From Spirulina sp. SIO3F2 (GTDB taxonomy: Bacteria > Cyanobacteriota > Cyanobacteriia > Cyanobacteriales > Spirulinaceae), in contig JAAHHN010000007.1 of assembly GCA_010672165.1 (NCBI GenBank), positions 1 to 64,000 on the forward strand: DNA of 64,000 nt, read 5' to 3'. The notes below the pieces were generated by a model. It was not told the DNA's origin. It saw nothing but the letters and a program-made list of their open reading frames with translations, and did not search any database. The position numbers and the translations under genes were made by a program. Below are positions 10,406 to 56,248 of the stretch, one piece after another (position 1 is the stretch's first letter; each line of letters starts with the position of its first letter).

Positions 10406-12562
10406 TCAGCACTTGACTTTTTCCAGAAAAATAAACAATGTATTATGGTCACAAAAATTCTCAATTTTACTTTTCAAACTTTCGTGATCTGGTGCAAAGA
10501 AAAATCTAGAATATTCGCCATTTCTTAGCTTACTAAAGTCAAATCTATCTTCAACCTTAGGGATTGCATAATATTTGTTTTTGTATATAAATAAACTAAA
10601 GCCATTAAAGCTTTTCTCAACTAATATCGGATAAGTCACGTTGGCTAAATCTCCTAACAAAGCAAGATTGATTTCCTCTTTAATAAGATCGGCTGTCGAA
10701 GCTTCAATAGCTTGTAGGTAAGCATCAGATTTAAACTTATTAATCTTGAATTCTCCATCTGCTTGAAGTATTGCATAAAATCTGTCCTTGAATTGGATAA
10801 TGTTAAAACCCCTATAGCCTTCTTCAATCAAGATTGGCTCAGTTACTTTAACTGGTTGCTCTAAGGGAATATTATTGTCAATTTCTTTTTTTAGAGGAAT
10901 AACTCCTGATGCTTTAAAAGATGGTGAATAATCGCCAGACTCAAACTTATTGATCTTGAATTCTCCATCTGATTGAAGTATTGCATAAAACTGACGTTTA
11001 AATTGAATAATATTAAAGCCCCTATAGTCTTCTTCAATCAAGATTGGATTTCTATCTACAAAATCTGGACGTATCGATTTTGTGAAGTCATTAAACTGAC
11101 AAAGTTGAGAATCGTCTTCCAAATCTATTGTCAGATCACTGAGCCGTAAAATTGGACTATGAGTAGATGAGAAAAGGAATTTATAATAGCGATACTTGTG
11201 ATGAATATCCTCAACTTTATATGTTCTACATTCATTAATAGACCAGTAGGAATTATCTATGATCTGGCTTAACTCTGACCATGAATTGCCATCATTCGAG
11301 CCTAATACTTTCCATGCTTTAGGCATTCGATTCGGTTTTTCAAATGCACGAAGAGAGTAAGCTTTTAAAACTTCTTTTTTGGGAAGTTCAACTTGTAGCC
11401 ATTGAGGCATTTTTTTATTGGTTTCCCAAAAAGTGGTAACATACTCATCAACTGCATTTAGACCTAAATCACCACGCTGGAGAGTTTTCACCTCTCTTGT
11501 TGAAGATGTTGTGATTCTTCGCAAGTTGAGATGCTTACCATCTATAGAATATGCAATATCATTGAAGTTAATATATTGTTGTGTCGAATCTGTGTATTCA
11601 AAAGAATTATCTTCTATGTGTGGATCGATCTGGTGTACTTCAAGAGTTTTGATATTGTTCTCTTTCAATACTTTTATAACTAGAGAAAGAGTTGGCTGTA
11701 TAGGCATACCAGCAAATTCCAATGATAAACCTTTCAAAAAAGAACCTCTTGCTGCATCCTCATTTAAGGCTACTGTAACTATTCTTCTTACAGTTGACAC
11801 ATCAGAAATATTAGAAGCTGCTATACGCCCTCTTACAAAATTCAAGCTTCTATGAGCATTGAATACTACTCTATACAGATTGGAGAATGTAGCATAACCA
11901 GTAACTAAGGGAAAGATGATTGCTAATACGATTGACCAATAGAACTTGACGTATTTAGCCTTGTTACTAGATATCGTAAAAAATATCAATTTCAGAACTG
12001 CAAGTAAAGCTATAGTGCTATAAGGCAGTATAGAGCGAAAAGTAAACCATTGATGTGAAGTAGCACCTTTAGAAAAGAGAAGAGGAGAAAGAGAGACCAG
12101 AGGTAATATGACGAGAGTTAAAAATATTTGAAGTATCCATGTATATGTTCTATTCTTTTTCGATTTTAAAGGGTGTAGTGATTGTATTGAACTGACCAAA
12201 TAATAAATAATTGAAATTACAATCAAGCATAGAATAACTTTACTCGAAGCATACCTAAAAAGTAAAAACAAAGAACCAGAAATAGTGACATTGAATATAG
12301 ACAGAAATAAATTCAGTTGATTGACTATGTCTAAAGAAACACTCGCTTCATAAAGGCTGCCAACTGCACCTGGTCTATCTCCTAATAATTGGAATTTATA
12401 ATCAAGAAAAGGTATCAATAGAAGCTTATAGAAGACAAAATAATTTATCATGCCAAATCCATAAAGAAAAAAATCTCTCAATACATATTGTCGTGTTTTT
12501 GGCCAAGAAGAAATCTCAGAGAAAACAACTCTAGAAAATGTAAATACAAAATGTAAATACAA
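10406..12562 (-). CDS. GtrII-like membrane glycosyltransferase, 3' fragment with F5/8C-like domain and three repeat modules (frameshifted gene)
   Basis: This frame (718 residues from a TTG at 12562) continues the membrane protein encoded just upstream and has no plausible start of its own. About eight hydrophobic helices occupy residues 25-230. A discoidin/F5/8 type C-like domain follows near 353-485 (PQWLQVELPKKEVLKAYSLR, then AWKVLGSNDGNSWSEL), suited to sugar or protein binding. Three tandem copies of a ~50-residue module end the protein at residues 505-563, 575-633 and 644-702, each with a GFNIIQFKxxFYAI-type core. The first two copies are nearly identical in DNA. A GtrII-type role, adding glucose to a surface glycan in the periplasm, is inferred from topology and the adjoining gtrB-like gene. 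Whether the split gene is functional is unknown. Confidence 0.65.
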   Translation of the reverse strand: MYLHFVFTFSRVVFSEISSWPKTRQYVLRDFFLYGFGMINYFVFYKLLLIPFLDYKFQLLGDRPGAVGSLYEASVSLDIVNQLNLFLSIFNVTISGSLFLLFRYASSKVILCLIVISIIYYLVSSIQSLHPLKSKKNRTYTWILQIFLTLVILPLVSLSPLLFSKGATSHQWFTFRSILPYSTIALLAVLKLIFFTISSNKAKYVKFYWSIVLAIIFPLVTGYATFSNLYRVVFNAHRSLNFVRGRIAASNISDVSTVRRIVTVALNEDAARGSFLKGLSLEFAGMPIQPTLSLVIKVLKENNIKTLEVHQIDPHIEDNSFEYTDSTQQYINFNDIAYSIDGKHLNLRRITTSSTREVKTLQRGDLGLNAVDEYVTTFWETNKKMPQWLQVELPKKEVLKAYSLRAFEKPNRMPKAWKVLGSNDGNSWSELSQIIDNSYWSINECRTYKVEDIHHKYRYYKFLFSSTHSPILRLSDLTIDLEDDSQLCQFNDFTKSIRPDFVDRNPILIEEDYRGFNIIQFKRQFYAILQSDGEFKINKFESGDYSPSFKASGVIPLKKEIDNNIPLEQPVKVTEPILIEEGYRGFNIIQFKDRFYAILQADGEFKINKFKSDAYLQAIEASTADLIKEEINLALLGDLANVTYPILVEKSFNGFSLFIYKNKYYAIPKVEDRFDFSKLRNGEYSRFFFAPDHESLKSKIENFCDHNTLFIFLEKVKC
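10664..11050 (-). repeat. Tandem duplication of a C-terminal module (about 210-bp period)
   Basis: The segments near 10735-10845 and 10945-11050 are close to identical over about 100 bases (both contain GAATTCTCCATCTG followed by TTGAAGTATTGCATAAAA). They encode the first two GFNIIQFK modules. A third, diverged copy lies at 10457-10633. The high DNA identity suggests a recent duplication. Confidence 0.8.
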
Positions 12563-13151
12563 ATACGAAAGTTGCTGTAGGAGGATAGATCAGGAGTGCC
12601 ATAAAAAACAGAATAAATGCAAGAAAGTAAATCCTGATTTTTCTTGAGGATAAACTGAATATTGTTCTGAAGTTATTGATTTTTATTTTTTCGAGAGTAT
12701 AATATGATGAGATTGCTAATATTGCTGCTATGATTCCAGGTACAAGATTTGTCACCCAAACGACGAAGAGCTGGTTACTAGGAAGCGTGATGTAACAGAA
12801 TCCTAAGATGAAAGATTCTGTTATAGATAAGAACTTATTTTTAGTGAAAAAGTGGAGAAAGAGATAGGCACTGAAAAATAAACATACTAGGCTAAATAAT
12901 CTTGCTACAACAAGATCATGAAAGCTATTAAGCGGTATAAAGTGTAGATTTAATAGCAAGGCTCCGAGTGGTCTACCGATATAGAGTAAATGATGTGTTT
13001 CTGGAAACCACTCACTACTTTTGTCATAGGTAAATGCCATGTGGTCATTATGAAATGCAAACTCACTTAGTATCGGAGTATAAACAATAAATCCTAGAAT
13101 AAACATGCCGATAAACATTCCTACTCTAGAATTATATTTTATGGATTTCAT
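12531..13151 (-). CDS. GtrII-like membrane glycosyltransferase, 5' fragment (frameshifted gene)
   Basis: This 206-residue frame starts at ATG 13151 and stops early at 12531. It holds an N-terminal helix, a short periplasmic loop with acidic residues (FAFHNDHMAFTYD), then several membrane helices, as in GtrII-type glucosyltransferases. The last sensible residues (PPTATFVFVFTF) are followed by the nonsense CIYIF and a stop. Removing one 13-bp copy at 12535-12560 joins it in frame to the downstream fragment (FVFVFTF followed by SRVVFSE), giving one protein of about 910 residues. It lies 59 bases after the gtrB-like gene, as expected for a donor-synthase/transferase pair. Confidence 0.65.
   Translation of the reverse strand: MKSIKYNSRVGMFIGMFILGFIVYTPILSEFAFHNDHMAFTYDKSSEWFPETHHLLYIGRPLGALLLNLHFIPLNSFHDLVVARLFSLVCLFFSAYLFLHFFTKNKFLSITESFILGFCYITLPSNQLFVVWVTNLVPGIIAAILAISSYYTLEKIKINNFRTIFSLSSRKIRIYFLAFILFFMALLIYPPTATFVFVFTFCIYIF
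12535..12560 (-). repeat. Exact 13-bp tandem duplication causing a frameshift
   Basis: AAAATGTAAATAC occurs twice in direct succession (12535-12547 and 12548-12560, plus-strand reading). Thirteen is not a multiple of three, and deleting one copy restores a single open frame through both flanking fragments. This is read directly from the sequence. Confidence 0.95.
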
Positions 13152-13210
13152 GAATAAATTTTTTGGGAAGAATTTGACTATAAAGTTTGCTTGAAGTTTT
13201 TAGACTTATA

Positions 13211-14167
13211 TTAGGAGGATGATGGCTTGTAATCTGATTCACAAACGAATACAGTTAGAGGCTTTTTTCTAACTCTAGTCTCAGCAAGAATACGGGCCAT
13301 ATATATCGATATTGTCCCAAGAGATAAAAAAATACCAATCATCATCAAACTTATAACGACCATAGGAGCTGTAACTCCAGGCACGACTATTCTTAATATT
13401 TGTCCAAGCAGAAAAATTAGAGCATATAAGATAGAGAGTATAATGCCAAGGAAGCAAGACATACTAGAAATCAAAAGCGGCAGATCGGAGTGTAATGTAA
13501 TCGCTCGAATGAGTTCTCGATAGGGATTAAGACTACGAAATAGAGAAAACTTTTTTGTGCCCGCAAAGCGAGATTCTCGCACATATTCAAGATATCCTTG
13601 AGGAAATCCTACAGACGCTGTAAGACCTCGCATAAATGGATCATTATCTGCGTATAGTAAAACGGAATCAACTGCTCTTCTTGAGAGTAATTTGAAGTCT
13701 CCAGAATTGGGTTTTAGCGAAATATCAGAAAGAAATTGAATTACTTGATAAGCGATAGAAGTCAATAACATTTTTATGACATTCTCGCCCTTCCGCTGAA
13801 TTCGAACAGTATTAACCACATCCAACGAATCAGAGATGGCTTTCTCTAACATTGTAGGAATCAGCTCAGGTGGATCTTGAAGATCAGAATCTAAATAGAC
13901 TACATAGTCAGCTTTGGTGTACTCTAGCCCCAGCAATAAACAAGAGGTAACACCATAACATCGAGATGTTGTGATAACCGATATTGGATAGTTGTCTGAT
14001 AATTCTTGTAGAATAAAAAAGCTAGAATCTGTGGAAGAATCATTAATAGCAAGTATGCGATAAGAGATTTCTGGAATCGACTCAACAGATTTGCTAATAC
14101 GCTGTATAAGTGATTGAAGATTTTCTGCTTCGTTTTTAAAGGAGAGAATGATTTCAAGGCTGATCAT
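13211..14167 (-). CDS. GtrB-type polyprenyl-phosphate glycosyltransferase (GT2)
   Basis: A 318-residue GT2 enzyme of the bactoprenol glucosyltransferase / dolichyl-phosphate-mannose synthase type. The N-terminal nucleotide fold is visible (FKNEAENLQSLI, AINDSSTDSS) with the metal-binding DSD at residues 93-95 (YLDSDLQDPPE). The C terminus has two membrane hairpins near 229-265 and 268-295. It would charge undecaprenyl phosphate with glucose or a similar sugar on the cytoplasmic face. The neighbour encoded 59 bases downstream is a GtrII-like transferase that would use the flipped product. No GtrA flippase is seen nearby. Confidence 0.85.
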   Translation of the reverse strand: MISLEIILSFKNEAENLQSLIQRISKSVESIPEISYRILAINDSSTDSSFFILQELSDNYPISVITTSRCYGVTSCLLLGLEYTKADYVVYLDSDLQDPPELIPTMLEKAISDSLDVVNTVRIQRKGENVIKMLLTSIAYQVIQFLSDISLKPNSGDFKLLSRRAVDSVLLYADNDPFMRGLTASVGFPQGYLEYVRESRFAGTKKFSLFRSLNPYRELIRAITLHSDLPLLISSMSCFLGIILSILYALIFLLGQILRIVVPGVTAPMVVISLMMIGIFLSLGTISIYMARILAETRVRKKPLTVFVCESDYKPSSS

Positions 14168-14279
14168 GTAATGAAGTGATGATTTTTGAGGTTTTATAAA
14201 TAGAGCAAATGATTTTTTTATAAATAAAGAATATTTTTAAAAAGTCCGAAATGGATTTTTTGTTGAGGATGATTGCTTT

Positions 14280-17252
14280 TTATCTTATCTGTATAACTCG
14301 CCATTTAATTCGAAGCCACAGCACTCTTAGTCGCCAAGCTCGTGTCTTTTCTAGTCTTCGAATTTCAGCCATAAGCTCTTCAGAATTTAATTGCGAACTA
14401 TCCTCATCACATTTTTTGGGTTCAAAAATCAGAAATTTACTGGATCGCATAGCAGTAATGCGATCGCAGAGAAGCTTTCGATTCCTATCATCTGGAGGAT
14501 AGTAAGGTTTTATATCTTGAGTAAGTGATTTTAACCGAATATTTTTCTGTAAAGCTTGAATGCGTCTCCGAAGATTTCGAAAAGAAGATTCAACTAGAAT
14601 TTCACGATTATTATTCATATCAATCTGATAAAGATCAATATATCCCAAAGACTTAGGAATACCATAATAATATTCTTTCCATATTACGAGATTATAATAG
14701 CGGGTAAAGTAAATTAATTTTGGCTTTATAGCATCGCTATTAGATCTGTAATCAGCCAGGAAATCATTAAGATATAGTAGGTGTGTTTTGATTCTAAGTT
14801 TCATGATCAGCCAATACACGCGTAGCCGCCAAGCAGGTTTAGACTCAATTTCACGGATTTTATGCAGCAAGCTTTCGGTATTAAGATTATTAAGACTATC
14901 TTGATTGTCCCAACCAAGGAATCGAGAAAGATATAAAAACTTACTACTTTTCATCGCTCTTATTCTCTCTTGAAGCTCTTCTAGAGTAGTATTTTGAGCA
15001 GGCGCAAAAGGGTAAATATCATGCTCGGGTATATCAAGAACATAGCTGATAAATTTGCGAACATAGCTAGTGATAGAATCTCTAATATATAGAATATATG
15101 TTGAAAGCAGAGTTTGTGTAAACTCTCGATACTTTAAAGGATTAAGCACAATTGCAATTGATGGACGCAGTAAATCGACAGAAGCAGTCTCAATATCTTG
15201 AATTGAGGCAAAAATTGGTTGAATTTCAGCATCGAGAAATTGACTCATACCCTTTTTGTTAGACAAAGCTTGCTCATGAATGATTTTATAAGCTTGCAGA
15301 AATTCAGTCGTATCTTTAGAAAGAGAAATTAACATGGTTTTCAATCTAATATTCTGCTTCAAATCAAAATCTTTTTGGAATTCTTTCTTGATATAAGATA
15401 ATCTGTATTTTGCAAAGCTGGGATCGAATTCGATAGCAGCCAGAAAATACTTTGAGTTTTGAGTATAAAACCCTAAGTAGTAATGGATAGAAGCTAGAAT
15501 GATTTGAATGAGCTTCTTTTCTTGGACAGTATCATCTGATGTCAAACTCTCAAGTACGCAATCAAAATAATCTCTGTAGTTAAAATAGTTAGAAAAGATA
15601 TCATAGGGAAAAACATCTTCTAAGCAATTGATCGACCAATACTTGGGTGATTCATGGAGAACCTCCATGGCGGCATTAATAGCTTGAGAAACTTGGATGG
15701 GATTTCCAAAGTGGATCAATGTCCGAATAAAGTTAAATCGTAATACAAGAGAGGTAGGGGAGTTTGCGATCGCATTTTTATAAATTCTCTCTATATCTTT
15801 CAACCAAGGATTAAACGATAATATATTAATAGAGCGATGGTAATGAAATAGAGTGATCTCGCGCGCTTGATCAATCGCAATTCTTGGAGATGAGTTCTCT
15901 ATCGATTCAATATCACTCAGACGTAATAAGTTTGCCTTATTAATTTCATCAAAGACTTTACTATGTTTGAAATCATGGCTAGGCAACCATCCTTTATGTA
16001 AAACAGTTCGTTTTTGAACTAATTGATGATAATTGATCTTTTTTCTCTGTTTAGTTATACCAGGCTTAGCTGCTAATACTGTCAAGTAGCGCAGAAACTG
16101 TGAAGCGACCTTATTAGCAGAAAACTCTCTGCGGATGATTTTAGCGCATCTATGAGCTTTCCATTGATAGTCAGACCAATTTTGAGCGATATGAAGTAAG
16201 TTTTGGGTTAAGTCCTCTTCATCATAAGAATAAGTCAGAACCCCTTCTTTCTCACCTACAAAGAGTTTGAGAGTACTTTCTTTCTGAGTCACTAAGCCAC
16301 AACCTAAGCTAAGTGCTTCCAGACCACGCGTTGGTGTTGCGCCCGGATGTCGGACATATGTAAAACAAACTTTAGAGCTGGACAAATTCTCATAATATTC
16401 GTCTGTACTGGTAAAACCATGAATAACTTTTATATTGAGTCCAGGCACTCGCAGAATTTGTGATAGTAAGTGAGCTTTGTCTGGATGATAAGGATGAGTT
16501 ACGGTGCCCGAAAGATAGAGATCGATCGGTCTTGGCTTCAGTTCTAACTCTGGAAGTGTTCTCAACAAACAAAAAGTCTTAGGGAAAGTTGAGACAGGGA
16601 CAGATACCAGCTTTGAGACATCTTTCCACTCTGTGCTATCCGTCACGAGCAACTCATCAAACAGTTGTAGCCAAGGATAGACGGCTTGAATATGTAGGTC
16701 ATAATCGGCGGTCTGTCCAAAGAGAGGGCACGATAATTCTTGAAGATTAGGTGGAATCAGATGCCACTCGACCATTTGGCAAATGTAAAAATCAGGTGGC
16801 GCTTGTGGGTTATAAAATTGATGAATATCCGCGTAGGGTTGATTAGGAATATCATCAGGATGAAAGCTGATATTCTTGACCAGGAATTTTGGATCGTCTT
16901 CCACACCGGCTAACCAATCTGTAAAATGGTTGCGAATCCAAGGTATTTGAGCCAGTACCGTGATTTTTGGCTGCTGAATCAGTTTGAGAAGATTCTGGGC
17001 ATGAGTTGTCGGAACTTTTTCTAGCAATTGACAAGCTAATCTATCATCGCCATGCATCCAATAGGCAACTCCTTCGTAGAAATTGGTATTGGTATTGTGA
17101 CGATGATTCTGAAAATAGGCGATCGCCTCTGTTGTCTTGCCAATCAGTGCAAAAGCAGCATACTTTTCCCAAGCTAGAGGATGACCTAATCGCGCAACTT
17201 GGGTATAGTTTCCAGATTGAAATAGCTGTTGAGTTTTGCCTAGGGATAACAT
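14280..17252 (-). CDS. Large glycosyltransferase (GT4/GT1-like) with C-terminal repeat modules
   Basis: 990 residues. An N-terminal TPR-like helical part (about 1-90) precedes a GT-B type domain whose C-terminal half is clear at 240-340 (IDLYLSGTVTHPYHPDKA, RHPGATPTRGLEALSLGCG). A helical middle region follows. The tail has two copies of a motif with AMxSSKF and AWRLRVxWL cores (about 755-822 and 924-990). Between them, near 842-905, is one copy of the ~50-residue module also found in the radical SAM and GtrII-like proteins (YYNLVIWKEYYYGIPKSLG). AGAGGAG stands six bases before the ATG. Likely a sugar transferase in surface glycan synthesis; donor unknown. Confidence 0.75.
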   Translation of the reverse strand: MLSLGKTQQLFQSGNYTQVARLGHPLAWEKYAAFALIGKTTEAIAYFQNHRHNTNTNFYEGVAYWMHGDDRLACQLLEKVPTTHAQNLLKLIQQPKITVLAQIPWIRNHFTDWLAGVEDDPKFLVKNISFHPDDIPNQPYADIHQFYNPQAPPDFYICQMVEWHLIPPNLQELSCPLFGQTADYDLHIQAVYPWLQLFDELLVTDSTEWKDVSKLVSVPVSTFPKTFCLLRTLPELELKPRPIDLYLSGTVTHPYHPDKAHLLSQILRVPGLNIKVIHGFTSTDEYYENLSSSKVCFTYVRHPGATPTRGLEALSLGCGLVTQKESTLKLFVGEKEGVLTYSYDEEDLTQNLLHIAQNWSDYQWKAHRCAKIIRREFSANKVASQFLRYLTVLAAKPGITKQRKKINYHQLVQKRTVLHKGWLPSHDFKHSKVFDEINKANLLRLSDIESIENSSPRIAIDQAREITLFHYHRSINILSFNPWLKDIERIYKNAIANSPTSLVLRFNFIRTLIHFGNPIQVSQAINAAMEVLHESPKYWSINCLEDVFPYDIFSNYFNYRDYFDCVLESLTSDDTVQEKKLIQIILASIHYYLGFYTQNSKYFLAAIEFDPSFAKYRLSYIKKEFQKDFDLKQNIRLKTMLISLSKDTTEFLQAYKIIHEQALSNKKGMSQFLDAEIQPIFASIQDIETASVDLLRPSIAIVLNPLKYREFTQTLLSTYILYIRDSITSYVRKFISYVLDIPEHDIYPFAPAQNTTLEELQERIRAMKSSKFLYLSRFLGWDNQDSLNNLNTESLLHKIREIESKPAWRLRVYWLIMKLRIKTHLLYLNDFLADYRSNSDAIKPKLIYFTRYYNLVIWKEYYYGIPKSLGYIDLYQIDMNNNREILVESSFRNLRRRIQALQKNIRLKSLTQDIKPYYPPDDRNRKLLCDRITAMRSSKFLIFEPKKCDEDSSQLNSEELMAEIRRLEKTRAWRLRVLWLRIKWRVIQIR

Positions 17253-17340
17253 TTTTTTCTCCTCTATTCGGAAAAGTGCTTAGGTTTTTACCTAATAGAA
17301 TTGAAGTTGATTTATTCGGGAAATGTTGATCGGAATTGTA

Positions 17341-18978
17341 TTAAAGACTCAATAGATCTCTAAGAGAATTAAGTAATTTATTGATCAAACTATTACTCGA
17401 ATCATTGTGTATAACTTGAATTCTTTCTTTTAAGCGATCGCAAGAAACGTCAGTGATTATATTTTTGTGAATATCCAGACTTATCTGGTCTAAATCTAAC
17501 GGGCCTAAGTATTGAGGTATTCCATGAAAACAAAGCTTCCAGGCAACAATATTGTAGCCATGCATTTGCTCAAGCAGGGTGGGCGAAGGATAGTAATTGG
17601 ATTGCTCTCTATCTGGCAACACACTCAAAGACTTCTGCATTTCTACATGAATCATCGACAGTAGTTTTGCATAGGTATCGCCAAAAATGATTCCTGGGAC
17701 TGAGTTTAAATCAACTTTATCAAGTTCAATATGTCCTATTTTACATGGGACTCCAATAAATACATCTTTGAAATATATAATGTTATAGTGTTCTTGGTTA
17801 CTGATGAATCGAGGTGGCAAGTATGGCTCTTCAACATCAATTACACCCATTTGAAATTCAACACTATCCAGATAAGAATGCAAGTTGTAGTTAAAATGCG
17901 ATTCTATTTCATGCATGTCAGTGTCTTCAATACCGATACAAAATCTAAATGCATCGCATCGTTTACATTCCTCCTCTTTATCGGTAATGAAACGCCGTAT
18001 TTGATTTGCATCTTCTCCAAACCAAATATCTTCAAAGCTGGCATCATGTAAATTTCCAACTGAATACTTATAGCAGAGTTGAACCTCTCCATTTGGCAAA
18101 ATTCTGGCAAAATTAAATGCCGAGTTACACTTATAAGATGGCATCATTGCATGCTCTTTCCATAAGTATAGTTGACGACAATTTTCTAGTCTTCGCACGT
18201 CAGCGCGATCGGAGTAAACCCACTGACCGCTAAAATTTTTTGGATATTCTTGTTGAATTGATGATTGCCGATGATACTGCTGACATAGAGCGATTCGTAG
18301 CCGGTGTTCAATAATATGACGTGACGCTTGGTCTAATACCTCTTGAACTTTATCTCTGATCGGATATAAGCACTCTCGAATGAGATCAGCATCCGGATAT
18401 CGAACAATCATTGTGATGATCCGAATCATATCTATCCCCAGTGATTCCCAGAGATTGATTGCTTCAAGGGTTTCATCCAAGTTGCTTCTCATGATGGTAT
18501 TGTTGACAGCAAAATAAGTCTCATGGTCAGTGAGCCTATCCTTGAGCTTTTTGATATTCTCAATAACTCGTTCATAGTTAGAATGACGGCGTATATAGTT
18601 ATAAGTTTTGGGTGTTCCACCATCGAATGAGAGAGTAATTAGTTGCATGCCAACATCTGACAAAGCATTCAATTTATCCTCACTACAATGGGTTACATTT
18701 GTGATTAACTCTAGCTTCATGTTGAGATCACCAAGCCGTCTCACTAGACTTGAGAAATCTTGATGGAGCATTGGCTCAAAGCCAGAACCAAGAACGGTGT
18801 AACATCCTTTAAGGCATCGAAGTTTATTGACGAGTTCAATGTCAAAAAGTTGAGTGGGTAGAGAAGGCTCAAAACTAACGTGACACATCCGGCAACGCAA
18901 GTTACATGTATTGGTAACTTCAATTTCAAGTAATTCAGGTAATTTCAGTATTCCATTCCAATTATCAAATTGAGCCAT
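17341..18978 (-). CDS. Radical SAM/SPASM protein with two C-terminal repeat modules
   Basis: 545 residues from ATG 18978, which follows AGGA at a spacing of about six bases; a TTG at 18990 is a less likely start. The radical SAM cluster motif CNLRCRMC sits at residues 25-32. A SPASM-type cysteine region lies in the middle (ILPNGEVQLCYKYSVGNLHD, then ECKRCDAFRFC). The C terminus carries two copies of the ~50-residue module (17641-17817 and 17407-17586; cores HYNIIYFKDVFIGVP and GYNIVAWKLCFHGIP). SPASM enzymes modify peptides, sugars or other small molecules. Its place between glycosyltransferase and sugar genes suggests glycan chemistry; the substrate is unknown. Confidence 0.8.
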   Translation of the reverse strand: MAQFDNWNGILKLPELLEIEVTNTCNLRCRMCHVSFEPSLPTQLFDIELVNKLRCLKGCYTVLGSGFEPMLHQDFSSLVRRLGDLNMKLELITNVTHCSEDKLNALSDVGMQLITLSFDGGTPKTYNYIRRHSNYERVIENIKKLKDRLTDHETYFAVNNTIMRSNLDETLEAINLWESLGIDMIRIITMIVRYPDADLIRECLYPIRDKVQEVLDQASRHIIEHRLRIALCQQYHRQSSIQQEYPKNFSGQWVYSDRADVRRLENCRQLYLWKEHAMMPSYKCNSAFNFARILPNGEVQLCYKYSVGNLHDASFEDIWFGEDANQIRRFITDKEEECKRCDAFRFCIGIEDTDMHEIESHFNYNLHSYLDSVEFQMGVIDVEEPYLPPRFISNQEHYNIIYFKDVFIGVPCKIGHIELDKVDLNSVPGIIFGDTYAKLLSMIHVEMQKSLSVLPDREQSNYYPSPTLLEQMHGYNIVAWKLCFHGIPQYLGPLDLDQISLDIHKNIITDVSCDRLKERIQVIHNDSSNSLINKLLNSLRDLLSL

Positions 18979-22179: not shown

Positions 22180-23118
22180 GTGAGTTTACATGTCTTAGTG
22201 ACAGGCGCGGCTGGCTATCTCGGTTCTGTGCTGTGTGAGCAGCTTCTGGATGCCAATTATCAGGTCACAGCCTTAGACAATTTGCGGTATGGTCAGAATT
22301 CGTTATTTCATCTCTGCGCCAATCCGCACTTTGATTTTATCTTTGGCGATGCACGGAATCCGGAATTAATGCAACCGTTGACTCAGCACGCTGATGTCAT
22401 TATTCCTTTGGCTGCGATTGTGGGTGCGACTGCTTGCGATCGCGATCCGTGGGCAGCGAAATCTACGAATTTAGAAGCTATTCAAATGCTGAATCAGGTG
22501 CGGAGTCCTCAGCAGCTCTTGGTGTATCCCAATACCAATAGTGGCTATGGCACTCAAACGGGTGAAATCTATTGCACAGAAGACACGCCACTAGAACCAA
22601 TTTCGTTCTATGGGCAAACCAAAGTTCAAGCTGAGTTAGAGCTGCTGGCGTCGTCTAATGTTATTACGCTAAGGTTAGCCACCGTCTTTGGCATGTCGCC
22701 CCGGATGCGACTTGATTTGCTCGTGAACCACTTTACCTATGCAGCGCTCTTTGAGGGTTATATTACGCTGTTTGAAAAGGACTTCAAACGCAATTACATT
22801 CACGTCCGAGATGTGGCGGATGCTTTTATTTATGTGATTGAACATGCTGATGCTCTGCGAGGCCGAGCCTACAATGCAGGCCTCGATGCTGCCAATTTTT
22901 CCAAGGAAGAGCTGGCCCTGAAAATCAAGGCCTATATTCCTAACTTCTATATCCATGCTGCGCCCATTGGCAGCGATCCTGATCAGCGTAACTATATTGT
23001 TTCTAACCAGCGGTTAAGGGAGGCGGGTTTTGAGGCGAAACGTACCTTAGACGAAGGAATTCAGGAGTTAATTAAGGGTTATCGGATGTTGGGTCGAGGT
23101 AAGTTCAAAAATGTCTGA
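22180..23118 (+). CDS. NAD-dependent sugar epimerase/dehydratase (extended SDR)
   Basis: 312 residues from a GTG start with GGAG 11 bases ahead. The NAD-binding GAAGYLG is at residues 9-15, and the catalytic set is Thr119 (NTNSGYG), Tyr144 and Lys148 (FYGQTK). It belongs to the extended SDR group of nucleotide-sugar epimerases and dehydratases. It overlaps the next gene by eight bases (ATGTCTGA), so the two are translationally coupled. In this operon it may supply the 4-keto sugar intermediate or epimerise it; the exact reaction cannot be read from sequence alone. Confidence 0.85.
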   Translation: MSLHVLVTGAAGYLGSVLCEQLLDANYQVTALDNLRYGQNSLFHLCANPHFDFIFGDARNPELMQPLTQHADVIIPLAAIVGATACDRDPWAAKSTNLEAIQMLNQVRSPQQLLVYPNTNSGYGTQTGEIYCTEDTPLEPISFYGQTKVQAELELLASSNVITLRLATVFGMSPRMRLDLLVNHFTYAALFEGYITLFEKDFKRNYIHVRDVADAFIYVIEHADALRGRAYNAGLDAANFSKEELALKIKAYIPNFYIHAAPIGSDPDQRNYIVSNQRLREAGFEAKRTLDEGIQELIKGYRMLGRGKFKNV

Positions 23119-23857
23119 TCAGCCCCGATTGCAAGGCCGATTACAAGACTGTACAGCGGTGATTTTGATGGGTGGTCTGGGCACACGGCTCCGCTCAGTG
23201 GTGTGCGATCGCCCCAAACCTCTCGCTCAAGTCAACGGCCGTCCGTTTATTACCTATCTGTTGGATCAATTAGCGGATACAGGCCTCCAGCGGGTGGTGC
23301 TCTGCACAGGCTATATGGGCGACATGGTAGAAGTTGTTCTCGGACAGATCTGGCGATCGCTGGAATTGATCTATTCTCCAGAAAGCATGCCCCTCGGCAC
23401 GGGCGGCGCTCTCCGTCTTGCGGCTCCCCATCTTCAGTCAGCAACCGCATTGGTGATGAATGGCGATTCTTATTGTGATGTGGATTGGGCGACGCTGTGG
23501 ACACAGCATCAGCGATCGCCCCAAGGCTGCACTATCGTGCTGACGCAGGTGCAAAACGTACAGCGCTTTGGGCAAGTAACGTTGAATACCAGCCAACAGG
23601 TGATCCAGTTTGCAGAGAAAGGCCAAAATTCGGGTTCGGGATGGATTAATGCAGGAATTTATCTGCTGCCTGTCGCAGCGATCGCAGCCCTGCCCGCACA
23701 CCAGCACTGTTCGCTAGAGACCGATCTACTCACGCAGCAAGTGGCGCACAGACAATTACGCGGCGTTAGGACTCAGGGGCTATTTATTGACATTGGACTC
23801 CCCGATTCCTATCAGCAAGCCCAATCTCTCATGAGGGATATTAAGCTCCAGTGCTGA
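23111..23857 (+). CDS. Sugar-phosphate nucleotidyltransferase (HddC-like)
   Basis: 248 residues with the nucleotidyltransferase fold: MGGLGTRLRSVVCDRPKPLA at the N terminus, then SPESMPLGTGGALRLA and VMNGDSYCDVD. Length and motifs fit D-glycero-D-manno-heptose 1-phosphate guanylyltransferase (HddC) and close relatives. The adjacent HddA-like kinase strengthens that reading. Product would be a GDP-sugar. Overlaps the preceding gene by eight bases and the next by one base. Confidence 0.8.
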   Translation: MSDQPRLQGRLQDCTAVILMGGLGTRLRSVVCDRPKPLAQVNGRPFITYLLDQLADTGLQRVVLCTGYMGDMVEVVLGQIWRSLELIYSPESMPLGTGGALRLAAPHLQSATALVMNGDSYCDVDWATLWTQHQRSPQGCTIVLTQVQNVQRFGQVTLNTSQQVIQFAEKGQNSGSGWINAGIYLLPVAAIAALPAHQHCSLETDLLTQQVAHRQLRGVRTQGLFIDIGLPDSYQQAQSLMRDIKLQC

Positions 23858-24924
23858 TGAGCAGAACACCCTTTAGGATTTCCTTTTTCGGTGGTGGCAC
23901 AGACTACCCAAGCTGGTACAAGCACCACGGTGGTTCAGTTTTAGCCACAACGATTAATCACTATTGCTATTTAACCTGCCGCTATCTACCGCCGTTTTTT
24001 GAACATCGGTTCCATGTTGTTTACTCCCGCATAGAAAACTGCTCAACGATTGAGCGGATTCAGCATCCAGCCGTTCGGACTACACTCAAATATCTCAACC
24101 TGCATCAGGGTTTGGAGATTCATCATGATTGTGATTTACCCGCCCGTAGCGGCCTGGGATCTAGCTCGGCGTTTACTGTGGGTTTGCTTCATGCGCTGCA
24201 TGCCCTGCACGGTCAGCACCCCAGCAAGGCCCAACTGGCACAAGAGAGTCTCCACATTGAGCAGAATCTTTTAGGGGAAACCGTGGGTTCTCAAGATCAG
24301 ATCTGTGCGGCTTATGGGGGCTTTAATCACATCACCTTTGGGCTCAATGGTGAGATTTCAATCCAGCCGGTTGAAGTGGATGGCGATCGCCTCCACCAAC
24401 TCAATCGCCATTTGATGCTCTTCTACACAAAGGTGCGGCGCACTGCAACTGCTTCGGAGATCGCCCGCAGCTATGTTCCGAACTTGGTGAAGAAGCAACA
24501 CCAGCTCGGTATGCTGCAAGCGTTGGTGGATGAAGGGCTCAAGATTCTGGTGAACCATCATGATTTAAACTCTTTTGGGGAGCTCCTCCACGAGACTTGG
24601 CAGCTTAAGCGAGACTTGGGAGCGCAAATCTCCAATGCCCAAATTGATGACCTGTATCGCTGTGCACGAGCGGCAGGTGCGGTAGGCGGTAAACTTACAG
24701 GAGCTGGCGGTGGGGGTTTCTTGTTACTGTTTGTGCCACCGGAAAGGCAAGCCACGGTGCGCGATCGCCTCCACAACCTCATCTATGTGCCGTTCCAGTT
24801 TGAAGGGTCAGGCAGTCAGATTATGTTTAGCGATCGCCAGCAACCTGATACGCAAACTAATCAAGCGATCGCGCCCTCGCAAACATTTGTCCACGCGATC
24901 CCTGATCGAGACAGTAAGGATTAA
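23857..24924 (+). CDS. GHMP kinase, heptose-phosphate kinase type (HddA-like)
   Basis: 356 residues from ATG 23857, whose A is the last base of the upstream stop (TGATG); a GTG at 23851 is a less likely alternative. It begins with the sugar-binding RTPFRISFFGGGTDYPSW, followed by the ATP loop PARSGLGSSSAFT and a late GHMP motif GGKLTGAGGGGF. This pattern fits D-glycero-alpha-D-manno-heptose 7-phosphate kinase (HddA), which makes the 1,7-bisphosphate, and related sugar kinases. The phosphatase and isomerase of the GDP-heptose route (GmhB, GmhA) are not in this window. Confidence 0.8.
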   Translation: MSRTPFRISFFGGGTDYPSWYKHHGGSVLATTINHYCYLTCRYLPPFFEHRFHVVYSRIENCSTIERIQHPAVRTTLKYLNLHQGLEIHHDCDLPARSGLGSSSAFTVGLLHALHALHGQHPSKAQLAQESLHIEQNLLGETVGSQDQICAAYGGFNHITFGLNGEISIQPVEVDGDRLHQLNRHLMLFYTKVRRTATASEIARSYVPNLVKKQHQLGMLQALVDEGLKILVNHHDLNSFGELLHETWQLKRDLGAQISNAQIDDLYRCARAAGAVGGKLTGAGGGGFLLLFVPPERQATVRDRLHNLIYVPFQFEGSGSQIMFSDRQQPDTQTNQAIAPSQTFVHAIPDRDSKD

Positions 24925-24939
24925 GGGAGGCAGCCTGAA

Positions 24940-25872
24940 ATGGAACAAAACGACAAAATTTTTGTGGCTGGCAATGACACCCTCATTGGTTCTGCGCTGG
25001 TTCGTCAGCTTAAATCTCAGGGCTATAGTTCGCTCGTTGGGCAAGGCGATCGCGGGCCAGACTTGCGAGATGCGCGTTCTGTTGATACGTTTTTTGCCGC
25101 CCACAAACCTGATTATGTGTTCCTCGTTGCAGGCGAGTCAGGAGGCATCTTGGCCAATCAACACTACCCCGCCCAACTGATGCGAGATAACCTGCTGGTG
25201 CAAACCCATGTGATTGAGAGTGCGTATCGTCATGGGGTGCGCAAGCTTCTCTACCTCGCCAGTTCCTGTAGCTATCCCAAGCATGCTGCCCAGCCGTTGC
25301 AGATAGATTCATTATTAACCGGGCCACTAGAACCCACCAATGTGCCTTATTCCGTTGCCAAACTCGCAGGCTTACACCTTTGTCAAGCCTATCGTCAGCA
25401 ATATCAGGTGGATTTTATTGTAGGGATTCCGGCCAATGCATTTGGCATTGGGGATGACTTTGCGCTAGAGACAGCCCATGTGATCCCCGCCTTGATTCAC
25501 AAACTTCACTGGGCTAAATTGCACAAACAGCCCAGTATTGATGTGTGGGGAACGGGGCAACCGCGACGTGAATTTGTTTTTGCGGATGATCTGGCGGATG
25601 CTTGCCTGTTTGTAATGCAGCATTACAGCAACAGTCTCCCGATCAATCTGGGTGGTGGCACAGATCTGTCAATCCGGGAGTTAGCTGAACTCCTCAAAGC
25701 TGTTGTGGGTTATCAGGGTCGGTTGAACTTTGATACCAGCAAACCCGATGGCATGCCTTTGAAGGCACTCGATTCGACCCCACTGTTGTCTCTCGGCTGG
25801 CAACCCCAAACAGCTCTAGAGTCTGCGATCGCTGCAACATATCAATGGTTCCGAGAGACTGCTGATGGCTAA
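24940..25872 (+). CDS. GDP-fucose-synthase-like SDR (4-keto sugar epimerase/reductase)
   Basis: 310 residues with AAGGGAGG nine bases before the ATG. It resembles GDP-L-fucose synthase (WcaG/Fcl) and ColC. Conserved residues include Ser109 and Cys110 (ASSCSYPK), Tyr137 and Lys141 (YSVAK) and His180 (AHVIPAL). In fucose synthase the Cys and His act in epimerisation and the Tyr/Lys in reduction. The NAD(P) loop reads GNDTLIG, lacking the usual middle glycine. Next to a ColD-type dehydratase it would finish a deoxysugar by epimerising and reducing the 4-keto intermediate. It overlaps the next gene by eight bases (ATGGCTAA). Confidence 0.8.
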   Translation: MEQNDKIFVAGNDTLIGSALVRQLKSQGYSSLVGQGDRGPDLRDARSVDTFFAAHKPDYVFLVAGESGGILANQHYPAQLMRDNLLVQTHVIESAYRHGVRKLLYLASSCSYPKHAAQPLQIDSLLTGPLEPTNVPYSVAKLAGLHLCQAYRQQYQVDFIVGIPANAFGIGDDFALETAHVIPALIHKLHWAKLHKQPSIDVWGTGQPRREFVFADDLADACLFVMQHYSNSLPINLGGGTDLSIRELAELLKAVVGYQGRLNFDTSKPDGMPLKALDSTPLLSLGWQPQTALESAIAATYQWFRETADG

Positions 25873-27889
25873 AACCGACCTCTACACCCCTTTTTATCGT
25901 GCCCTCTACCGAATTCGCAGGGTTGAGGAGGAGATTGCGCGGGTTTACCCCACTGATAAGATCAAGAGCCCCATTCATTTATCCATTGGTCAAGAGGCGA
26001 TCGCAGTGGGGGTTTGTGTTGCACTCCAACCCCAAGATATTGTCTTTGGCACCTACCGCAGCCACGCCCTATATCTGGCCAAGGGGGGGAATTTGAACCA
26101 GATGATCGCTGAACTCTATGGCAAGGCGACGGGTTGCGCCAAGGGTAAGGGCGGTTCCATGCACCTGATTGCTCCAGACGTCGGCATGATGGGCACGTCA
26201 GCAGTCGTCGGTACGACGATCGCCAATGCCATCGGCTACGCCTATGCCCTCAAATATCGGCGGCAGAACGCGATCGTGGTCAGCTTTTTTGGTGATGGTG
26301 CGGTGGATGAAGGCGTCTTCTCCGAGAGCCTGAACTTTGCCGCTCTTAAGCAGTTGCCAATCATCTTTATCTGTGAGAACAATTCCTACGCCATTCATAC
26401 TCATCAACGCTTGCGGCAGGCTCAGCTCAACATTCGCGATCGCGCCCAAACCTATGGCATTCCCGCAGACCGCATTAATAATAACGACCCCTTCGAGATT
26501 TACGAGCGGATTGCCGCCGTTGCCGACCCGTTACGACGCGGAGAAATTGGCCCCTGCTTTTTTGAATGTCTAACCTACCGCTGGAAGGAGCATGTGGGGC
26601 CAGGCGAGGATTATCACTTGGGCTACCGCACTCACGAGGAGGCACAACCCTGGATTGATAGTGACCCGCTGCCTCAACTGGCTCAACAGGTCACAGACCA
26701 GCAACGCACCGCGATCGAGGCAGACGTTGAAGCGGAAATTAGAGCGGCGTTTGAGTTTGCTGAGCAGAGTCCCTTTCCAGAGCCCGCTGAGCTGTATACC
26801 GATGTGTTTAAAGCACGGGAACCTGCACCCATAAAAACAACTCCAGCGTCCGATCGCATTTGCTCCTATGTCGAAGCCCTGCGCGAAGCGGCTCACCAGG
26901 AACTGGCCGCAGATGCTTCAACCCTAATGCTTGGCTTGGATGTGGATGATCCCAAGGCGGTTCAAGGTACAACCCAAGGGCTGCGGTCTGCCTTTGGCCC
27001 GGAGCGAATTTTTGGCACACCCCTGGCAGAAGATGCCATGACTGGAGCCGCGATCGGGATGGCTCTAGCCGGACTCCGCCCCGTCCATATCCATATCCGG
27101 ATGGACTTTCTGATGTTGGCGATGAATCAACTGGTGAATGTGGCTGCCAAGAGCCGCTATATGTTTGGTGGTCAGGTCTCAGTTCCCTTGGTCGTGCGGG
27201 CGATGATTGGCAAGAGTTGGGGTCAGGGTGCTCAACATTCTCAGGGGCTCTATGCCTTGTTTATGAATATTCCAGGTCTCAAGGTTGTTGCTCCCACCAC
27301 GCCCTATGATGCCAAGGGTTGCTTACTGGCCGCGATCCGCGATGATAATCCCGTGATTTACGTTGAGCATCGTTTACTTCATTTCCAGAGTGGCCTGGTT
27401 CCCGAAGAGCCCTACGAAGTGCCAATCGGTCGAGCCCGAGTGACCGCGATCGGTACAGATATTACCCTGGTCGGAATTTCTTATATGCAGATTGAATGTC
27501 TGCGAGCCCAGCAGTATCTGCTGGATGTGGGCATTACGGCGGAAGTGATTGATCCCATTTGGCTAAGTCCCCTAGATATTGAAACAATTGCGACTTCTGC
27601 GGAGAAAACGCAACGCCTCTGTGTGGTGGATAATGGTTGGCTAACTTGTGGGGCTGGGGCGGAGATTATTACTCAAGTTTTAGAGCGACTCCAGGGCAAA
27701 CGCCCAATCCAGATCCGGCGTTTAGGCTTTGCGCCCGTCACGTGCCCTACCACTCCTATTCTAGAAGACCAGTTTTATCCCAATGGCCGCACGATCGCGG
27801 CTGCGGCGCATCAACTGATCAAGGGTGCTGAATGGCTGCCAGAAGAACGAGCTGACCTCAAAACAATTGAGTTTAAAGGGCCGTTTTAA
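25865..27889 (+). CDS. Fused thiamine-diphosphate E1 alpha/beta enzyme (pyruvate or 2-oxoacid dehydrogenase E1-like)
   Basis: 674 residues combining E1 alpha (about 1-320) and E1 beta (about 335-674). The alpha part has the ThDP/Mg motif GDGAVDEG at 143-150 ending in the NN pair at 172-173. The beta part has TPLAEDAMTG with catalytic-type Glu389, AQHSQGLYALF and PGLKVVAPTTP. Normal complexes need E2 (lipoyl) and E3, and neither is here. Being the last gene of a sugar-nucleotide operon, translationally coupled to an SDR, it may add an acetyl-derived two-carbon unit to a keto sugar, as proposed for E1-like pairs in branched-sugar pathways. The alternative, a housekeeping 2-oxoacid dehydrogenase, is less likely here. 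Confidence 0.8.
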   Translation: MAKTDLYTPFYRALYRIRRVEEEIARVYPTDKIKSPIHLSIGQEAIAVGVCVALQPQDIVFGTYRSHALYLAKGGNLNQMIAELYGKATGCAKGKGGSMHLIAPDVGMMGTSAVVGTTIANAIGYAYALKYRRQNAIVVSFFGDGAVDEGVFSESLNFAALKQLPIIFICENNSYAIHTHQRLRQAQLNIRDRAQTYGIPADRINNNDPFEIYERIAAVADPLRRGEIGPCFFECLTYRWKEHVGPGEDYHLGYRTHEEAQPWIDSDPLPQLAQQVTDQQRTAIEADVEAEIRAAFEFAEQSPFPEPAELYTDVFKAREPAPIKTTPASDRICSYVEALREAAHQELAADASTLMLGLDVDDPKAVQGTTQGLRSAFGPERIFGTPLAEDAMTGAAIGMALAGLRPVHIHIRMDFLMLAMNQLVNVAAKSRYMFGGQVSVPLVVRAMIGKSWGQGAQHSQGLYALFMNIPGLKVVAPTTPYDAKGCLLAAIRDDNPVIYVEHRLLHFQSGLVPEEPYEVPIGRARVTAIGTDITLVGISYMQIECLRAQQYLLDVGITAEVIDPIWLSPLDIETIATSAEKTQRLCVVDNGWLTCGAGAEIITQVLERLQGKRPIQIRRLGFAPVTCPTTPILEDQFYPNGRTIAAAAHQLIKGAEWLPEERADLKTIEFKGPF

Positions 27890-28720: not shown

Positions 28721-29473
28721 TCAATTAAGTGCATAGCGTTGCTGTTCTCGTGCCGTAGCGAGATAGGCCTCAATTACGCTTTGGGCGGGGCCAACTTGCT
28801 GAATCTGCCCCTGATGGAGCCAAATAACGCGATCGCAGGCAGCCTGGATAAACTCCATCTGATGAGATACAACCACAACCGTGGTCTGAGTTTGCCACAG
28901 TTTTTGCATTCGTTGCTGACACTTGGCTTTGAAACGTTCATCGCCCACAGACAGCACTTCATCTAGGATTAAAATATCCGGCTGGACATCCGTGGCAATG
29001 GCAAAGCCTAAGCGGGCTGTCATCCCAGAAGATAAGGCTTTAACAGGTGTCTTTGCATACGCTTCAAGTTCAGCGAACTCAAGAATCGCTGATACTCGTT
29101 GTCGCATTGTTGATAAGGGTACACCTAGAAAAACGCCATAGGTCAAAATATTATTGACGACAGATAAATCCCCCACAAAACCTGCACCGAGTTCAATTAA
29201 GGGGGCAATTCGACCGTGAGTCTTCACAGATCCGAGGGTCGGTTCTAAGATGCCAACAATGACTTTCAGAAGCGTCGATTTTCCTGAGCCATTGGCACCA
29301 ATGATTCCGATTTTTTCACCCGTTAAGATTGAAAGATTAATATCATTGAGGATTCGATGCTTCACCGGACGGTGATACCGACCTTCAAGTAGTGATAGAA
29401 TCGTTTTTTTTAGATCATAGGTCAATTCTTCCTGTGTTCTTCTCCATAGGGAAACTTGATTGAGCGTAATCAT
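28721..29473 (-). CDS. Polysaccharide ABC exporter ATP-binding protein (Wzt-like)
   Basis: The start is ATG 29473, which shares its A with the stop of the permease gene (TAATG). An in-frame upstream extension to 29575 overlaps the permease and is not used. The 250-residue protein has Walker A GANGSGKST, signature LSSGMTARLGFA and Walker B DILILDEVLSVGD. There is no C-terminal carbohydrate-binding extension as found in chain-terminus-sensing Wzt. It would power export of a polyprenyl-linked polysaccharide made by the enzymes of this locus. Confidence 0.9.
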   Translation of the reverse strand: MITLNQVSLWRRTQEELTYDLKKTILSLLEGRYHRPVKHRILNDINLSILTGEKIGIIGANGSGKSTLLKVIVGILEPTLGSVKTHGRIAPLIELGAGFVGDLSVVNNILTYGVFLGVPLSTMRQRVSAILEFAELEAYAKTPVKALSSGMTARLGFAIATDVQPDILILDEVLSVGDERFKAKCQQRMQKLWQTQTTVVVVSHQMEFIQAACDRVIWLHQGQIQQVGPAQSVIEAYLATAREQQRYALN

Positions 29474-30312
29474 TATAAAAGATCCATATATTGGGTTTTC
29501 CAGCAATGGAAACAGGCCAAGCCGATCGCTAGTATTAATAGGGCCGTTGAAAAAGAAGAAAAGACCACGCTCCAATAGGGGACATGGCTGCTAAAGACAA
29601 TTTGTCGAATACTGTCAATAATAATGAACAGTGGGTTGAATTTTAGAAACGGTTGGATTGCCTCAGGCACTATATCCGGTGGGTAGAAGACTGGACTACT
29701 GATCCAGAGTGAAAAAGTAATCAATTCATAAAAGTATTGCAAGTCTCGGAAAAATACATAAAGACCACTCACGATCAAAGCAATGCCTAGACAAATAATT
29801 ATGAGCGCGATGAAGGGCAAAATAACCATACACATATTGACCCAGCTTCCTGATTTTAGCAACGTTAAAAATAGAACTAAGGGTAAAACACCTGTTGTAA
29901 ATTGAACGGTATTAGCAGTGACGATACCAACGGGAAAAATGCTCAAGGGGAGCTTAATTTTATTTAATAGAGTTCCATTCGAGACAATGCTTGTTAACGC
30001 CTGAGTTGTGGACGCTGAGAAAAAGTGAATGACGATGAGTCCCAGAAACGCCGCCATTGCATAGCTTAAGAGCGAGTCATTATAATAGCTGGCAAACTCG
30101 GCTCCAAACAGTGCGGTATAAATACCTGTCATAATCAAGGGGTTGAAGAGTGACCAATATGTGCCGAGCAATGAGCCGCGATATCGTGTTGCGAGGTTCT
30201 GAAAGGCAATAATTCGTACTAACTCGCAATAGCGATTATATAATCCTATACTTAAGTGATGATATAACCTTGTCTTAAATTGAATTTTTTGTGAGTTCAA
30301 TTTTCTGAGCAA
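29473..30312 (-). CDS. Polysaccharide ABC exporter permease (Wzm-like, ABC-2 type)
   Basis: 279 residues with the ABC-2 polysaccharide permease pattern: amphipathic N terminus, RYRGSLLGTYWSLFNPLIM, six membrane segments and the late WISSPVFYPPDIVP and NPLFIIIDSIRQ motifs. The start is a TTG at 30312 without a good ribosome site; no ATG precedes the conserved region. Coupled by a one-base overlap to the Wzt-like gene. Together they form a Wzm/Wzt exporter for lipid-linked glycan. Confidence 0.88.
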   Translation of the reverse strand: MLRKLNSQKIQFKTRLYHHLSIGLYNRYCELVRIIAFQNLATRYRGSLLGTYWSLFNPLIMTGIYTALFGAEFASYYNDSLLSYAMAAFLGLIVIHFFSASTTQALTSIVSNGTLLNKIKLPLSIFPVGIVTANTVQFTTGVLPLVLFLTLLKSGSWVNMCMVILPFIALIIICLGIALIVSGLYVFFRDLQYFYELITFSLWISSPVFYPPDIVPEAIQPFLKFNPLFIIIDSIRQIVFSSHVPYWSVVFSSFSTALLILAIGLACFHCWKTQYMDLL

Positions 30313-55744: not shown

Positions 55745-56248
55745 GGGATTTGAAGTTGCTAAAAGAGCATACGAACGACTCAGAATCCAACAACCAGCTC
55801 CAGCAAAAAATATCCAAAACAAAGCTGCTATCTAGACTCTTGTGCTAGACAACGATATGCAGCCATTACCCACCGAAGCACAACCCGCCCAGAATGGATA
55901 AAACCCTGCCAATAAAACCCTTGAGTATCAGGTCATCTCTATGGCTTTGAAATACAAACTCGAACAATTGATCAAGAGCTATATTGAACTCTTTGCCAAT
56001 CATCAACGCACCCTATTGACTAAATACTTAACGGTTTAACTCAGTTTTGGTCTATATTTTTGCCAAACTCTAAATTGGTTGTTTTGAGTTCACAAGCTGG
56101 AATATATGACATCCTTATGCAGAAAACCGCATCTTTTTCACAAAACAACACAACAAAAAACAAACTGACATAAATAATGCAGTTGCAAAACTGTGGCTAT
56201 AGCTTGAATTTACCGCAGAAGACTCAGACCTTCTTGCAGCGAGGCTGA
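55745..56248. other. Intergenic region between terD-like and giant genes
   Basis: 504 bases. A tiny plus-strand frame at 55941-56039 (32 residues, beginning MALKYKLEQLIKSYIEL) has a helical composition but no good ribosome site and is only a weak candidate. No convincing promoter for the giant gene was recognised. Confidence 0.4.

Follow-up and report, generated by a model that had tools for sequence, protein, structure and literature searches.

A module of about 55–66 residues recurs on proteins of unrelated chemistry in a glycan locus of Spirulina sp. SIO3F2, and on glycan enzymes and polysaccharide export proteins in at least seven phyla. It is best explained, with roughly even confidence, as an undescribed non-catalytic domain that would tether these proteins to their common glycan. 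Most of the gene clusters that contain it also hold a Wzm/Wzt polysaccharide ABC exporter, and in three genomes it lies within the Wzt protein itself. Portable accessory modules are already known from glycan enzymes; an uncatalogued module common to most enzyme classes of one pathway plus its exporter is a new variation on them.

Six copies of the module in a glycan locus of Spirulina

The window, i.e. the whole 64,000 nt stretch analysed (positions 1 to 64,000, forward strand, of contig JAAHHN010000007.1, assembly GCA_010672165.1), contains six copies of the module distributed over three proteins (Table 1). The initial annotation had placed six copies close to these positions, which independent hidden Markov models (HMMs) confirmed. 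Whether the HMM was built without the window copies or without any cyanobacterial sequence (168 sequences; used against self-recruitment), the same six segments were the only matches among the 630 window ORFs. The cyanobacteria-free HMM gave them i-E values of 1.8e-9 to 1.3e-13, and in the same test the reversed window ORFs gave nothing below ~0.8. The reversed-ORF controls and the independent HMMs rule out chance or low complexity as the source of the copies. The six segments aligned over 55 columns, and no further copy was found in the rest of the 7.3-Mb genome.

Table 1. Module copies, their host proteins and neighbouring genes in the window (i-E values of module copies are from the cyanobacteria-free HMM)
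Feature	Position	Strand	Remarks
Host 1: GtrII-like GT-C membrane glycosyltransferase, C-terminal ORF, 718 aa	10406-12562	-	
GtrII-like protein, module copy 3	10445-10642	-	i-E 1.8e-9
GtrII-like protein, module copy 2, EG/DG subtype	10652-10849	-	i-E 9.1e-12
GtrII-like protein, module copy 1, EG/DG subtype	10862-11059	-	i-E 1.8e-12
F5/8 type C (discoidin, CBM32-like) domain, host 1	11252-11515	-	PF22633 1.5e-9, PF00754 7e-8
GtrII-like gene, N-terminal ORF, 206 aa	12531-13151	-	Out of frame relative to 10406-12562
GT2, PgfS/ArnC-like polyprenyl-phosphate sugar transferase, module-free	13211-14167	-	
Host 2: 990-aa glycosyltransferase, Glyco_trans_1_2-like	14280-17252	-	Pfam 24.8 bits, cut-off 25
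990-aa glycosyltransferase, single module copy, LG subtype	14541-14738	-	i-E 1.3e-11
Host 3: radical SAM/SPASM protein, 549 aa	17341-18990	-	Radical_SAM 3.5e-20, SPASM 1.5e-11
Radical SAM/SPASM protein, module copy 2, LG subtype	17401-17598	-	i-E 1.3e-13
Radical SAM/SPASM protein, module copy 1, LG subtype	17632-17829	-	i-E 2.4e-12
Wzt-like ABC ATPase, without a Wzt_C domain	28721-29575	-	
Wzm-like ABC-2 permease	29473-30312	-	PF01061 9.3e-12

The three hosts, described earlier as adjacent, do lie close by, but not strictly side by side, since the N-terminal GtrII-like ORF and the module-free GT2 intervene. Besides its three modules, the GtrII-like host has TM helices and an F5/8-type C domain located in the same chain, upstream of the modules. 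The Wzm/Wzt pair (28721-30312) is found ~10 kb past the radical SAM gene, and its ATPase was the sole match of its kind in the window's genome at E ≤ 1e-30.

The module matches no known family

No Pfam or NCBIfam family exceeded its curated cut-off over the module in the window hosts, in the long arrays described below or in stand-alone module proteins. The six window copies gave no Pfam match above cut-off either, and a sequence search of the PDB returned nothing for the module; it is therefore, as first proposed, not a named domain. The nearest Pfam miss was CarboxypepD_reg-like (PF13715), which scored 29.3 bits against a cut-off of 32.2 in a single protein whose three copies are nearly identical. 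PF13715 is an all-beta sandwich of ~90 residues. Membership of this family was rejected because the score falls below the gathering cut-off and because the modelled module, unlike an all-beta family, ends in a 13-residue helix. Identity with Wzt_C (PF14524) was also rejected: the two occupy separate stretches in one protein, and the fold predicted for the module ends in a helix. Inspection of the open PMC literature, which cannot prove absence, found no description of the module or of its combination of hosts.

An AlphaFold2 model of the second radical SAM copy (17401-17598; 89-row alignment) had a pLDDT of 91.8 and a pTM of 0.78. It predicts a compact fold with a three-stranded sheet (strands 3-12, 15-21 and 23-28), a short strand (48-50) and a 13-residue helix (53-65). 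The three divergent copies of the GtrII-like protein, modelled jointly (pLDDT 75, pTM 0.55), each repeated this succession of elements; the copies are therefore predicted to have a common fold, and the joint model fits a beads-on-a-string arrangement. In the PDB, Foldseek gave no match at E ≤ 0.001 (best E 1.2), and VIA (best Z 4.3) found no convincing fold relative among the chains examined. The integrase arm-binding (AP2-like) fold reached a VIA Z of only 2.9-3.0, level with unrelated folds.

The module consensus is LIESYKGYNIVKYKGRFYAIPQSLGAVDLTKEEQKNYPGILKADSLEELKKKID. Overall identity among copies is only ~25%, yet specific polar and turn residues are strongly conserved, with peaks at N9 (87%), Y18 (75%), G/A19, P21 (72%), G25 (92%) and D28 (67%; 208 copies, 144 effective). 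In the model, conserved residues alternate along strands 2 and 3 and so lie on both faces of the sheet. Since the single helix would cover one face only, the other is a candidate binding face.

The module is sporadic across at least seven phyla

In total, 208 copies were found in 76 ORFs from at least seven phyla, with no match in 2,536 reversed ORFs. Cyanobacteria of the same family as the window's genome contained 7 (G005) and 20 (G010) matches. A wider search, in which a degenerate DNA pattern that favours the LG subtype was run over 85,000 genomes and followed by iterative HMMs, added Nitrospinota, Nitrospirota (including Magnetobacterium casense), Desulfobacteraceae, Planctomycetota, Pseudomonas, Methylomonas, Pseudanabaena, Acidobacteria and a Zixibacteria MAG. 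Two Azospirillum plasmids have the module on GT2 and APS-kinase fusions. The module is therefore neither a cyanobacterial nor a family-level peculiarity, and the suggestion that it is restricted to cyanobacterial glycan loci did not hold. Phage records gave no matches and two viral-contig scans no module, so a phage origin was rejected.

Prevalence is low and sporadic, ~0.3-5% of sampled genomes, all counts including the seed genomes: 5/148 in Nitrospirota, 3/77 in Nitrospinota, 3/299 in the phylum of Methylomonas and 1/198 in that of the Desulfobacteraceae locus. Around the window's genome, the figures (1/386 in the phylum sample, 5/391 in the order sample) were obtained with an earlier profile and are hence lower bounds. 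Copies of one locus are, on average, 26% identical, as against 25-27% for copies of other genomes, outside the genus of G010 and G005, where copies are homogenised across hosts. Co-evolution of copies within a locus was accordingly rejected except in that genus, within-locus identity elsewhere being at background level.

Host proteins build, decorate or export glycans

After masking of the module, its hosts fell into ~29 BLAST clusters, or ~25 host families once recognised classes were merged. Pfam identified GT2, GT2+GT4 fusions, radical SAM/SPASM and B12-radical SAM proteins, Methyltransf_24, sulfotransferases, APS kinase, Acyl_transf_3 and Wzt; GT-C hosts were assigned by TM pattern and sequence. 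Nearly all recognised families are glycan-building or glycan-decorating according to Pfam. The claim that one module is common to enzymes of different chemistry in a glycan locus can thus be extended from the window to many other genomes.

The initial annotation took the module to be a C-terminal appendage. It is found at the C-terminus, and also at the N-terminus (L031:13594-15225), internally, and in stand-alone proteins in which two modules are the only recognised domains (L150:14097-14570, L151:7860-8300). The longest arrays comprise 16 copies on a radical SAM/SPASM protein and 12 on a GT2. As in the CBM class, the module is appended to catalytic domains, portable and repeatable, with 1-16 copies on ~25 host families.

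Module clusters hold Wzm/Wzt exporters

Whole-genome scans located the copies of each genome in 1-3 gene clusters, in agreement with the locus restriction proposed for the module. Most of these clusters hold a Wzm/Wzt exporter. A survey of 112 neighbouring ORFs identified ABC_tran (11), ABC2_membrane (10), Wzt_C (7), epimerases (9) and DegT (6). Wzm/Wzt homologues, i.e. an ABC-2 permease plus a Wzt-type ATPase, were present in a fetched module cluster of 13 genomes, namely that of the window and 12 others. A less biased test was provided by five genomes (G766, G791, G1263, G1287 and G1301) added with confident matches by phylum profile scans. In all five, modules were present on at least two ORFs of one cluster, and all five had Wzm/Wzt homologues in that cluster. 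The genomes checked contain only 1-3 ATPase homologues and, in most cases, 1-2 Wzt_C genes, and typically one Wzt-type homologue lies in the module cluster; with so few genes, the probability of chance co-location within ~20 kb is estimated at near 1% for each. The stretches fetched from G681, G447, Azospirillum and several MAGs showed no Wzm/Wzt pair, and neither did some second clusters.

In one Planctomycetota (L149) and two Nitrospirota loci (L161, L185), the module was found inside Wzt, between the ABC ATPase and Wzt_C. The L149 protein has its ATPase at residues 43-175, the module at 259-316 and PF14524 at 362-510; in L185, the module spans residues 269-324 and PF14524 residues 374-512. 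In characterised systems, Wzt_C acts in the cytoplasm, where it recognises the cap that completes the chain (PMC9445017). The linkage to Wzm/Wzt and the insertion into Wzt tie the module to one polysaccharide pathway. Wzt_C resembles the module in being non-catalytic and in having a host that takes part in ABC-dependent polysaccharide export (PMC9445017). However, it is a jelly-roll of ~140 residues present once per Wzt, whereas the module is predicted to be a beta3-alpha unit of 55-66 residues, which accompanies Wzt_C within single proteins and is also carried by many further enzymes. The module sequence can serve to recognise a widespread, though sporadic, class of polysaccharide loci, and in each it points to the proteins that probably make up the assembly line, some of them without a recognised family.

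Module copies are probably both cytoplasmic and periplasmic

Among the hosts, Wzt, APS kinase, radical SAM and methyltransferase proteins are cytoplasmic. The C-termini of GT-C hosts, which bear the modules, follow a positively charged last loop and appear to be periplasmic. So do the three modules of a single-TM protein, which follow a TM segment preceded by seven K/R and no D/E. Copies are therefore present on both membrane sides, the periplasmic location being probable and judged from hydropathy and charge only. The EG subtype is not a strict periplasmic marker, as cytoplasmic hosts of several genomes carry it.

Possible roles of the module

The reading we prefer, while regarding the case for it as evenly balanced, is that the module is a non-catalytic, weakly glycan-binding (or lipid-linked-glycan-binding) tether of the enzymes of a Wzm/Wzt polysaccharide pathway. 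The modules of each enzyme would hold it on the growing chain, much as CBMs hold glycosidases on cellulose, and the module borne by Wzt would allow finished, decorated chains to be handed to the pump. We infer that the ligand is the glycan, that avidity rises with copy number and that the module serves to pass chains on to the exporter. The arrays of up to 16 copies, the two-module stand-alone proteins and the presence of an F5/8C domain in the same GT-C chain support a tether. So does the presence of copies on both membrane sides, since the ligand available on both would be the glycan, whether growing or in export, or else its lipid carrier; this would favour a glycan ligand over enzyme-enzyme docking. 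A ligand special to each locus is disfavoured because copies within a locus are no more alike than others (outside the G010/G005 genus), and the lack of a fold relative of known function in the Foldseek and VIA searches weakens the tether reading. CBMs of glycoside hydrolases (CBM32/F5-8C) resemble the module in being small, repeatable and portable among unrelated catalytic domains; they differ in that the module matches them in neither sequence nor fold, is hosted by biosynthetic and export proteins, and has a glycan as a putative ligand only.

Taken across the whole pathway, the module might be a tag for a subset of Wzm/Wzt systems in several phyla, marking a modular assembly line that ends in hand-over to the pump; its carriers would be polymerases, sulfo-, methyl-, acyl- and radical-SAM tailoring enzymes, periplasmic GT-C proteins and the export ATPase. 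We rate this combined proposal slightly below an even balance. If glycan binding is true, one recognition unit would link export with tailoring by sulfation, methylation and radical chemistry, and the idea of cap recognition by Wzt would extend to the entire pathway.

A distinctly less probable possibility is docking, in which copies would bind each other or a common scaffold and so gather the enzymes and Wzm/Wzt into one membrane complex. Almost all enzyme types of a locus carry the module, stand-alone proteins with two or three modules are possible scaffolds, and the most conserved residues are kept across phyla with presumably different glycans. Protein-protein complexes are, moreover, established in this pathway: WbdD recruits WbdA, and this coupling, together with the coiled-coil rulers of O-antigen terminators, provides non-catalytic organisers of ABC-dependent O-antigen enzymes (PMC3482155, PMC11231755). 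WbdD-WbdA coupling keeps docking a serious rival, and, if docking is true, the module would scaffold glycan synthesis in general. The known organisers are, however, coiled coils and a recruitment site that serves a single enzyme pair, whereas the module is globular and found on most enzyme types of a locus. Further, no separate cognate partner-domain family was apparent in the hosts or neighbouring genes, though copies may bind one another, and no partner array matches a copy number that ranges from 1 to 16. A single complex could not hold all copies if, as it appears, they lie on both sides of the inner membrane.

To bind undecaprenyl-linked sugar phosphate or a membrane face, rather than the sugar chain, is an improbable role for the module. 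A lipid carrier is common to all these loci, and would fit both the sites on the two membrane faces and the conservation of residues between phyla (N 87%, G 92%, P 72%, Y 75%); yet a polymer would be a better match than one carrier head group for arrays that reach 16 copies, and no membrane-inserting element is evident in the predicted secondary structure. Finally, a passive spacer or mobile linker without a specific ligand, spread by recombination inside glycan loci, would agree with the homogenised copies of the G010/G005 genus and the ease with which repeat-rich genes recombine, but is very unlikely given how strongly particular polar and turn residues are conserved despite low overall identity, and given the selective presence of the module in Wzm/Wzt clusters of many phyla.

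Module subtypes and possible recent spread

Across all loci, the module sequences fall into two subtypes, distinguished by EG/DG vs LG at consensus positions 24-25. Both can be found in a single locus, as in the window, where the copies of the GtrII-like protein are of the EG/DG subtype and those of the radical SAM protein and the glycosyltransferase are of the LG subtype. In the genus of the same-family genomes G010 and G005 (loci L031-L037), the module copies (PQGEGEFSLERIEKKDYS) are almost the same across methyltransferase, radical SAM, glycosyltransferase and GT-C hosts. This likeness between copies on different hosts suggests that, within loci, the module has spread recently or undergone gene conversion.

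One protein, encoded at locus L034 on a contig different from that of the same genome's other module genes, has a single transmembrane helix and otherwise only three near-identical modules. Its charge distribution indicates an N-in orientation, and its modules are therefore probably periplasmic.

Other features of the window

The GtrII-like gene is split between two frames, and a 13-bp tandem direct repeat (GTATTTACATTTT, two copies) lies at the break; this may be a real mutation, a slippage site or an assembly error. In the 990-aa glycosyltransferase, another repeat flanks the module on both sides. Elsewhere in the window, the GHMP kinase and nucleotidyltransferase pair of a nucleotide-sugar operon suggests that a heptose-type precursor is made.

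Features of the window and of locus L034
Feature	Position	Strand	Remarks
GtrII-like gene	12531-13151 and 10406-12562	-	two ORFs in different frames; break and 13-bp repeat within 12531-12562
~65-residue repeat of the 990-aa glycosyltransferase	about 14283-14480 and 14763-14970	-	pattern RI.AM.SSKF ... AWRLRV.WL..K
Nucleotide-sugar operon	22180-27889	+	epimerases, nucleotidyltransferase, GHMP kinase, fused E1/transketolase-like TPP enzyme
2860-aa ORF	47240-55822	-	single ORF
Single-TM three-module protein	L034:9139-9861	-
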